A DNA stretch of 33,741 nucleotides from Ilumatobacteraceae bacterium (GTDB lineage Bacteria; Actinomycetota; Acidimicrobiia; Acidimicrobiales; Ilumatobacteraceae). The notes below the pieces were generated by a model, which did not search any database, had not been told where the DNA came from, and was given only the letters and a program-made list of their open reading frames with translations. Location: contig SHUW01000006.1 of the NCBI GenBank assembly GCA_009694465.1, forward strand, positions 1 to 33,741, in the 5' to 3' direction. Shown here one piece after another: positions 17,046-18,899 of the stretch; the first letter of the stretch is position 1; each line of letters begins with the position of its first letter. The translations under genes and the position numbers were made by a program.

Positions 17046-17507
17046 TCAACTGACGGGCGACTTATCCAGCAGAGCAGCTTCTCGCTGAAAGTCTTGCGCT
17101 CCATCGAAGTTTTTATAGACGCTTGCGAAACGCATATAGGCAACTTCGTCAAGTTCACGCAGACGTTCAAGGACCGCAAGTCCGACTCGGGTACTTGGCA
17201 CATCGCCACCGCCACCAAGTCGCAATTCTTCTTCAACCGAGTCTGCTAGAGCGTTCACCGCGTCATCATCAATGGGTCGACCCTTGGCCGCAGCCATCAC
17301 CCCAGAAATGAGTTTGCCGCGATCAAAGGACTCACGCGTGCCCCTGGTCTTGGTGATCATCAAAGGAACTTCGTCCATCCGCTCAAAAGTTGTAAACCGA
17401 TGCATGCACTGCGGGCATTCCCGACGACGTCTAATTGCCCCGCCATCTTCGGCAGTTCGAGAGTCCACTACTTTGGTGTCTTCATGGCGACAAACAACGC
17501 AACGCAT
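17046..17507 (-). CDS. nrdR: Transcriptional regulator NrdR
   Basis: A repressor of ribonucleotide reductase genes that senses (d)ATP. The 153-residue protein has the zinc ribbon C3/C6/C31/C34 with the DNA-binding DSR and RRRRECPQCMHRFTTFER segments, followed by an ATP-cone domain (about 45-140; KTRGTRESFDRGKLISGV and the VGLAVLERLRELDEVAYMRFASVY end). ATG 17507 is used because every NrdR begins M-[RK]-C-x2-C; the longer frame to 17534 adds nine unrelated residues. Its likely target is nrdJ, whose upstream region has an NrdR box, although nrdJ is not immediately adjacent. A terminator-like hairpin lies just upstream, so nrdR should have its own promoter in the short gap to 17576. Confidence 0.97.
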   Translation of the reverse strand: MRCVVCRHEDTKVVDSRTAEDGGAIRRRRECPQCMHRFTTFERMDEVPLMITKTRGTRESFDRGKLISGVMAAAKGRPIDDDAVNALADSVEEELRLGGGGDVPSTRVGLAVLERLRELDEVAYMRFASVYKNFDGAQDFQREAALLDKSPVS

Positions 17508-17523
17508 GTCCACAGCGTAGTGT

Positions 17524-17576: not shown

Positions 17577-18032
17577 CTATTCGGTGGGCAACACAAGGCG
17601 TTGGCCAATATCCACAGAAGCCCCGCCATTGAGGTTCACAAGCTCGTCGACATAGTTTCGCAAATTGCCGTCTGTCAGCGATGAGGCGATGGACCACATG
17701 GTGTCACCTTGTTGCACGATGTAAAAATCAGTCCCCTGAACATAGGCCAGCGATAGATCAAGAGAGACTGGATTTATTGCCGCGTTGTCAATGCTCAGCG
17801 ATTGGGGCGTCACCGCGGGGAGAGAGGCAGTCCCATCCCCACGGCTCGCCAAAGTGCGGATGCCGAGGCAGACGGCAACCACAACTGCTAGGACGGCCAG
17901 ACCTGCAACAACTCGCCGACGAAGATAGACGTCGTGCGACACATTGCCAGTTGGAGCCGAAGAAAACTGGATGGCCGAGCCCCTATTAGGGCGGATTTCA
18001 ATGATGTAACGAGGATCAAGTGCGAGGGCCAT
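17577..18032 (-). CDS. LysM-domain membrane protein, Rv2719c/ChiZ-like SOS cell-division protein
   Basis: A 151-residue protein: cytoplasmic N-terminus (1-38), one membrane span (about 41-59, VVAGLAVLAVVVAVCLGI), an extracytoplasmic linker and one LysM peptidoglycan-binding domain (about 103-149, YIVQQGDTMWSIAS to GQRLVLPTE). Position between nrdR and divergent lexA matches mycobacterial Rv2719c (ChiZ), reported to be SOS-induced and to affect cell division at the septum; functional equivalence is inferred from this layout. AAAGG lies 7 nt before the ATG. The upstream gap holds a promoter with an SOS box inside its spacer, so LexA control is very likely. Confidence 0.88.
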   Translation of the reverse strand: MALALDPRYIIEIRPNRGSAIQFSSAPTGNVSHDVYLRRRVVAGLAVLAVVVAVCLGIRTLASRGDGTASLPAVTPQSLSIDNAAINPVSLDLSLAYVQGTDFYIVQQGDTMWSIASSLTDGNLRNYVDELVNLNGGASVDIGQRLVLPTE

Positions 18033-18120
18033 GATGTACCTTTCGAATCTGTGTAATGGGTTGAAAACTTGTGATTTGAGATTGCCGCAGGGGTGTGGCA
18101 GGAATTGTCAATCCCTGAAC

Positions 18121-18134
18121 CGAACGCCTGTTCG
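18121..18134. promoter_or_regulatory. SOS (LexA) box 1
   Basis: CGAACGCCTGTTCG, a perfect match to the actinobacterial core CGAAC-N4-GTTCG. It lies just downstream of the predicted start site of the LysM gene promoter, about +5 to +18, where bound LexA would block RNA polymerase. Confidence 0.85.
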
Positions 18135-18145
18135 TACTGTCAAGT

Positions 18146-18174
18146 AGGTTATGCGAACGCCTGTTCGGTGTCAA
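18146..18174 (-). promoter_or_regulatory. Promoter of the LysM (ChiZ-like) gene
   Basis: On the minus strand, TTGACA (18174-18169) and TAACCT (18151-18146) are separated by exactly 17 bp. SOS box 2 lies wholly inside the spacer, which is a textbook arrangement for LexA repression. The start should be near 18139, giving a leader of about 107 nt before the ATG at 18032. Confidence 0.7.
18154..18167. promoter_or_regulatory. SOS (LexA) box 2
   Basis: CGAACGCCTGTTCG, identical to box 1 including the N4, and 33 bp from it (about three helical turns, same DNA face). It occupies the -35/-10 spacer of the LysM gene promoter. Confidence 0.85.
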
Positions 18175-18220
18175 CCTTCGTTTAAAGATTGATCTCTGAC
18201 CAGCGATTTTGCAGAAAATA

Positions 18221-18234
18221 CGAACAGGTGTTTG
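18221..18234. promoter_or_regulatory. SOS (LexA) box 3
   Basis: CGAACAGGTGTTTG has one mismatch to CGAAC-N4-GTTCG. It overlaps the -35 hexamer of the lexA promoter (18232-18237). Confidence 0.75.
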
Positions 18235-18260
18235 ACTCCTGGGGCGAACACCCGTACGAT
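18232..18260 (+). promoter_or_regulatory. lexA promoter, probably giving a leaderless mRNA
   Basis: TTGACT (18232-18237), a 17-bp spacer and TACGAT (18255-18260), which fits TANNNT. The -10 box ends 6 nt before the lexA ATG at 18267, so the normal start site is the A of the start codon, and no Shine-Dalgarno sequence exists. SOS box 3 covers part of the -35 and box 4 part of the -10, giving autorepression. Confidence 0.72.
18245..18258. promoter_or_regulatory. SOS (LexA) box 4
   Basis: CGAACACCCGTACG has one mismatch to the core. It covers the promoter spacer and the first four bases of the lexA -10 box. Its start is 24 bp from that of box 3. Confidence 0.7.
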
Positions 18261-18266
18261 GCTCCC

Positions 18267-18899
18267 ATGAGCGAACTCACCCTCACCCTTCGTCAGCGCA
18301 GCATCCTTGAATGCATTGAGACCAGCATGGAGGAGCGTGGCTTTCCCCCCTCCGTCCGAGAAATTGGCGAAACAGTCGGTCTCAACTCTCCGTCGACAGT
18401 TCATAATCACCTCAGCACCTTGCAACGCCTGGGTTATCTCGAACGAGATCCCAACCTGCCGCGGGCCATCAAAGTCAACTGGGATCGCAACAGTGGAGCA
18501 ATCATTTCGCGTAGCAAGGTCAACCATGTACCACTGATCGGTGATGTCGCCGCCGGAACTGATGTTCTTGCTCAACAAAATGTTGAAGAGCTACTACCTC
18601 TGCCCGCTGACTTCACTGGCGATGGTGATCTCTTTATGTTGCGAGTGCGCGGTGACTCGATGATTGACGCTGGAATTCTCGACGGTGATTACATCGTGGC
18701 CCGCCAACAAGTCACGGCTAATAATGGCGACATTGTTGTGGCTGGTATTCCAGGTGACGAAGCAACCGTCAAAACATTTACTCGCAAGGGTCGCGAAATT
18801 ATTTTACTACCAGCTAACCCGCGCCTTGAACCGATGCATTTCCCCGCTGACGAGGTACACGTTTTCGGCAAAGTAGTCACCGTTTTACGACGATTGTAA
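18267..18899 (+). CDS. lexA: SOS repressor LexA
   Basis: Represses DNA-damage genes and cleaves itself when RecA is activated. The 210-residue protein has the winged helix-turn-helix (about 1-70, with PPSVREIGETVGLNSPSTVHNHL as the recognition part), the self-cleavage bond A96-G97 in GDVAAGTD, and the catalytic dyad S131 (RGDSM) and K169 (ATVKTF). ATG 18267 starts the conserved MSELTLTLRQRSILECI; the frame runs back to 18189, but that extension would translate the operators and promoter. Divergent from the LysM gene across 234 bp with four SOS boxes. It is convergent with the dapC gene, 17 bp between stops. recA itself is not in the window. Confidence 0.97.
   Translation: MSELTLTLRQRSILECIETSMEERGFPPSVREIGETVGLNSPSTVHNHLSTLQRLGYLERDPNLPRAIKVNWDRNSGAIISRSKVNHVPLIGDVAAGTDVLAQQNVEELLPLPADFTGDGDLFMLRVRGDSMIDAGILDGDYIVARQQVTANNGDIVVAGIPGDEATVKTFTRKGREIILLPANPRLEPMHFPADEVHVFGKVVTVLRRL

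Follow-up and report, generated by a model that had tools for sequence, protein, structure and literature searches.

A Probable LexA-Controlled Divergent Promoter Region with Four SOS Boxes between lexA and a LysM Gene in Ilumatobacteraceae

The window analyzed here is a stretch of 33,741 nucleotides from an Ilumatobacteraceae genome (assembly GCA_009694465.1, contig SHUW01000006.1), in which lexA and a divergently oriented gene for a LysM protein are separated by a gap of 234 bp (18033-18266). The LexA protein scores 225.3 bits against its curated family model, above the cut-off of 110.95, and contains both the DNA-binding and the S24 peptidase domains. In the LysM protein, the LysM domain occupies residues 104-149 and is preceded by a hydrophobic stretch, as judged by eye; no NCBIfam equivalog scores above its cut-off for this protein, and no PDB entry matches it up to an E value of 0.1. 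The gene sits between nrdR and lexA and is divergent from lexA, which is the architecture of the ChiZ/Rv2719c type, and we refer to its product as ChiZ/Rv2719c-like, a likeness of position and architecture. The placement of nrdR beyond the LysM gene is also the mycobacterial gene order, Rv2719c being a LysM protein followed by nrdR in M. tuberculosis. The divergent neighbor was examined within the genus (g1), where a LysM homologue is divergent from lexA in all nine loci that have a match to the LysM gene. The features of the locus, with promoter elements as predicted from the sequence, are the following.

17046..17507, minus strand: nrdR (NCBIfam TIGR00244, E 1.4e-49); TACGCT 6 nt before ATG, weak -35
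17577..18032, minus strand: LysM-protein gene, ChiZ/Rv2719c-like by position and architecture, 151 aa (Pfam LysM, E 3.5e-07)
18079-18100, minus strand: candidate PafBC-type promoter element of the LysM gene, TGCCAC-N10-CAATCT, read 18100-18079
18121-18134, no strand assigned: SOS box 1, perfect, CGAACGCCTGTTCG; directly downstream of the LysM-gene promoter
18146-18151, minus strand: LysM-gene -10, TAACCT, read 18151-18146
18154-18167, no strand assigned: SOS box 2, perfect, CGAACGCCTGTTCG; within the spacer of the LysM-gene promoter
18169-18174, minus strand: LysM-gene -35, TTGACA, read 18174-18169; its 17-nt spacer encloses box 2
18221-18234, no strand assigned: SOS box 3, CGAACAGGTGTTTG, one core mismatch; right half, GTTTG, runs into the lexA -35 and forms its beginning
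18232-18237, plus strand: lexA -35, TTGACT, 17 nt from the -10
18245-18258, no strand assigned: SOS box 4, CGAACACCCGTACG, one core mismatch; right half, GTACG, runs into the lexA -10 and forms its beginning
18255-18260, plus strand: lexA -10, TACGAT, followed by GCTCCC (6 nt) and ATG at 18267
18267..18899, plus strand: lexA, 210 aa, start ATG 18267 (NCBIfam TIGR00498, E 5.4e-67; Pfam LexA_DNA_bind and Peptidase_S24)

Four 14-bp SOS boxes thus lie in the gap, starting at 18121, 18154, 18221, and 18245, two of them perfect and two with one mismatch, exactly as a sequence-only reading of this DNA had placed them. That reading had also described a -35/-10 pair for each direction with 17-bp spacers, box 2 inside one spacer and boxes 3 and 4 on the -35 and -10 of lexA, as well as a lexA -10 located 6 nt before ATG; all of this is borne out by the letters, and reading the window by eye we find no Shine-Dalgarno sequence before lexA, again as described. 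Its term "interlocked" for the two promoters does not hold, as they do not overlap; they stand back to back and point in opposite directions, their -35 boxes being 57 bp apart. On the far side of the LysM gene, nrdR may likewise be leaderless and have its own promoter, judging from the TACGCT that stands 6 nt before its ATG (17505-17520, minus strand) with a weak -35. An inverted repeat, AAAAGTCT/AGACTTTT, is visible by eye between nrdR and the LysM gene.

The perfect palindrome CGAACN4GTTCG occurs at only four sites in the 1.48 Mb of this genome that was searched, and two of these are in the lexA gap. When the letters of 90 gaps from the family were shuffled, a single box arose in 6 of 1800 trials and two or more never did, and 142 of the 144 tiles of 234 nt that make up the window contain no box. 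Loose matches with two mismatches number 170 across the window, with 170.4 expected; they are at chance level, so that only the near-perfect cluster counts. The same four boxes are present in three other public records, whose LexA is 98-99% identical, which excludes an assembly artefact. A perfect GAACTGATGTTC within lexA (18556-18567) was considered as a further site and rejected as probably due to chance; 7 of 11 relatives have lost one or both half-sites, and four keep them.

Within the genus, where LexA is 82% identical or more, none of the 22 different upstream sequences has fewer than four boxes, and the distance between boxes 1 and 2 is 23, 32, or 33 bp. The sequence-only reading had proposed comparing the gap in related genomes, and in the family the layout is indeed kept. 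We searched 121 genomes, of which 110 matched; two (G060 and G085) were left out because the match spans only the 3′ part of lexA, and the sample consists of 108 loci from 25 genera, 90 collected first and 18 added later. In every one of the 108 loci, a TAnnnT hexamer precedes an in-frame lexA ATG by 6 nt (81 loci) or 7 nt (27 loci). TAnnnT at this distance was the pattern sought, hence itself chosen, and it appears in 121 of 4500 trials with shuffled upstream DNA, a control that preserves letter composition alone, with a single start tried at each locus. Furthermore, where a locus offered several TAnnnT/ATG pairs, we chose the pair that had the best -35, a choice that biases the count toward finding a promoter. 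A stricter script recovers 88 of 90 loci, the remaining two (L107 and L130) having TAGAAT or TAGGAT at 6 nt and no good -35 at 17 nt. TTGACN stands 17 nt upstream of the -10 in 100 of the 108 loci. Four or five boxes are present in 89 of 105 loci, three having been dropped from this count for offering less than 234 nt. Two strict boxes lie in the last 60 nt in 67 of 90 loci, and in 65 of these 67 they are 24 bp apart, the spacing that separates boxes 3 and 4 in all 22 genus sequences. A box within the spacer of the divergent promoter is found in 9 of 9 loci of genus g1 and, by a strict pattern, in 23 of 90 family loci.

The mismatches of boxes 3 and 4 are not decay, as the odd letters are those of the promoter hexamers and are conserved: the right half of box 3 is GTTTG in 104 of 108 family loci, and that of box 4 is GTACG in 77 of 90. 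The simplest reading is that they would represent a compromise between operator and promoter. Where the left half of box 4 is intact, the -10 reads TACGnT without exception (95 of 95 loci), as against 1 of the 13 loci where this half is absent; the other 12 have a different hexamer in the same place, a TAnnnT ending 6 nt before ATG. A LexA tree built from 90 family loci plus five outgroups requires two or three changes of this trait, and three independent pairs (two in agreement, one without a difference) are a number with which significance is unreachable. With so few changes on the tree, the association between the left half of box 4 and a TACGnT -10 is suggestive rather than statistically shown. 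Eleven of the 13 loci without the left half belong to genera g13, g17, and g18 (for example L144, L132, and L155), in which box 3 is mostly GTACN4GTTTG, boxes are few, and the leaderless -10 stays at 6 nt. Little LexA operator is visible at lexA in these genera, and LexA control may differ there; the weakened box 3 and the scarcity of boxes count against strong autoregulation everywhere. In genus g22 (L092 and L108), box 3 appears by eye to be shifted by about 11 bp, or one helical turn, upstream of the -35.

We conclude that the gap very probably holds divergent promoters under LexA control, of the actinobacterial lexA/Rv2719c type. From the elements, their spacing, and their conservation, we infer LexA occupancy, the assignment of boxes to promoters, the transcription starts, and the use of PafBC as follows. 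LexA dimers on boxes 3 and 4 would cover the -35 and -10 of lexA and thereby repress it, and LexA at boxes 1 and 2 would cover the spacer and the early transcribed region of the LysM-gene promoter. Upon damage, self-cleavage of LexA would open both promoters, and lexA would then be read from a leaderless mRNA beginning at its ATG. The LysM gene, probably equipped with an extra promoter of PafBC type, would in addition be inducible without LexA cleavage. Control of both genes by LexA from paired operators and a leaderless lexA had both been suggested in the first reading; the conserved paired boxes and the -10 at 6-7 nt throughout the family argue for these two suggestions. Its further idea, that a leaderless message would free the recovery of lexA from normal initiation during damage, gained no support here.

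lexA shows the sequence traits of a leaderless gene, a TAnnnT 6-7 nt before the start and no Shine-Dalgarno sequence, and its message probably starts right at the start codon, with transcription predicted to begin at or beside 18267. Within the window, a leaderless-type hexamer precedes 4 of 27 long ORFs (81 candidate starts), including lexA and nrdR, and is accompanied by a good -35 for lexA only. For comparison outside the family, we used 41 of the better-scoring loci among 69 other genomes of the class with a match, and 59, again better-scoring ones, among 132 matching genomes from beyond the class, neither set being random; L200, a class locus, was left out of the counts. It could be argued that lexA starts further upstream and is not leaderless, with TACGAT being an operator half-site that merely resembles a -10, as GTACG serving as an operator half alone would leave TACG at this position. 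However, the 13 loci that lack the left half of box 4 still have TAnnnT there, nearly always in letters other than TACGnT, and the TTGACN at 17 nt is widely kept. Moreover, a Shine-Dalgarno-like sequence precedes lexA in only 9 of 90 family loci, versus 47 of 59 in other classes (for the rest of the class, the figure is 25 of 41). We therefore regard an upstream, leadered start as very unlikely. A leaderless-looking lexA is seen in 4 of the 59 loci of other classes, all four from one family, f49, which may be mycobacterial, a guess from its layout.

The single core mismatch in each of boxes 3 and 4 could also mean that these boxes are weak or idle, that LexA binds only boxes 1 and 2, and that lexA is hardly autoregulated, and the decay of the lexA-side boxes in g13, g17, and g18, where the start remained, points the same way. 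Yet the letters that boxes 3 and 4 do not share with the promoter are kept as well, the left half GAAC being present in 89 of 108 loci for box 3 and in 95 of 108 for box 4. The pattern GAACN4GTTTG upstream of lexA extends beyond the family (84 of 90 loci within it): it occurs in 36 of 41 loci from the rest of the class and, among those from other classes, in 32 of 59. In M. tuberculosis, lexA is reportedly regulated by one SOS box (PMC8151990). Idle lexA-side boxes thus seem unlikely to us. That the four boxes are kept together in most family loci would fit cooperative binding of them all in a single looped repression complex, instead of pairs that act separately, but the distance between boxes 2 and 3 within the genus is 67, 29, 43, or 69 bp without a steady helical phase, against the fixed 24 bp between boxes 3 and 4, and we consider such a complex distinctly unlikely. 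Two independent pairs remain our reading. One could go further and propose for the family both that the lexA promoter is built from its own operators, whose right halves start the -35 and the -10 so that repressor and RNA polymerase would read overlapping letters, and that the invariant leaderless start is kept so that, as the cell recovers from damage, new LexA can be made from a message with no 5′ leader; as a joint proposition, this is doubtful.

On the LysM side, a second, LexA-independent promoter of PafBC type is likely; its candidate element had been overlooked in the sequence-only reading. Taking the PafBC/RecA-NDp pattern TGTC(GG/AG/AC)-N10-TAnnnT for comparison, we note that the M. 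tuberculosis PafBC motif also allows TGTCAC-10xN-TA-3xN-T (PMC8151990), and that the window element is two letters off this variant; some relatives have TGTCAC-N10-TACGGT at this element. The pattern TG[CT]CA[CT]-N10-[TC]AnnnT is present on the LysM strand in 8 of 9 loci of genus g1 and in 14 of 108 family loci, versus 1 of 108 on the opposite strand. TGNCACACCC-N6-YAnnnT has 53 matches in 11 genus genomes versus 15 for a reversed control, the pattern being drawn from these sites and the comparison hence not independent. The genome encodes PafB and PafC homologues side by side, as tandem WYL genes (G000:C103): the PafC homologue matches chain 7p5x (E 5.8e-22) as well as 6sj9, and the PafB homologue matches the first half of the PafBC chain 6sj9 (E 5.1e-15). 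A search for recA gave no hit in this genome, whose completeness is 69%, and found the gene in 9 of 13 genomes of the genus. In all nine of these loci, recA is preceded by the same boxes, one of them within a TTGACC-17-TACGCT promoter, so that the GAACN4GTTC palindrome of the actinobacterial SOS box is kept upstream of both lexA and recA. Five of the nine recA loci, counted by eye, also have TG[CT]CAC-N10-TAnnnT upstream.

In E. coli, lexA has two operators over an autoregulated promoter, with an operator sequence that differs from the one described here, and its mRNA is leadered. Dullaghan (2002) reportedly described multiple SOS boxes ahead of lexA in M. tuberculosis. The M. tuberculosis gap has four known SOS boxes, of which one regulates lexA and the other three act, alongside a PafBC motif, on the divergent operon (PMC8151990); the operon is named Rv2019c, Rv2018c, and Rv2017c in one sentence there and rv2719c in a supplement legend, and we adopt the latter. 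Translation of LexA in M. tuberculosis begins with a codon located at the transcription start (PMC2897130). The locus studied here is like that of M. tuberculosis in its divergent lexA/Rv2719c-type pair, its four boxes, its candidate PafBC-type motif toward the Rv2719c-like gene, and its probably leaderless lexA. Four operators had been called more than usual for this locus in the sequence-only reading, an argument from rarity that fails given the M. tuberculosis precedent for both the four boxes and the leaderless start, and given the box numbers in the family. What is new is the apparent allocation of the boxes, judged by position, as two and two instead of one and three, and the fusion of one box to the lexA -10.

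In other families of the class, too, a box ending in GTTTG covers the -35 and another box comes after it, and 12 of the 41 loci have a leaderless-type start. In those leaderless loci that were read by eye (e.g., L187 and L188), unlike here, this other box follows the first at about 17 bp and falls within the spacer, instead of over the -10 at 24 bp. In S. venezuelae, two LexA sites are predicted in the lexA promoter region and bound in vitro (PMC9380542), which is similar to the two sites that we recognize at lexA from sequence alone; the word "leaderless" is absent from the main text of that paper. Our literature search found no paper on LexA in Ilumatobacteraceae. The locus would extend the M. 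tuberculosis type of divergent lexA control region, with inputs from LexA and probably PafBC, to a distant class of freshwater Actinobacteria. Furthermore, the family offers a natural set of lexA promoters, some with an operator over the -10 and some lacking it, in which to study how the same letters serve both repressor and RNA polymerase and what difference, if any, a leaderless lexA makes.

Elsewhere in the genome, 20 stretches around other box-like sites were taken out, and the one analyzed is the box on contig C44 (L275, G000:C44, about 1030-1058). There, a perfect SOS box precedes an ORF that has no Pfam match and looks ImuA-like by eye, with TATAGT 7 nt before its ATG.
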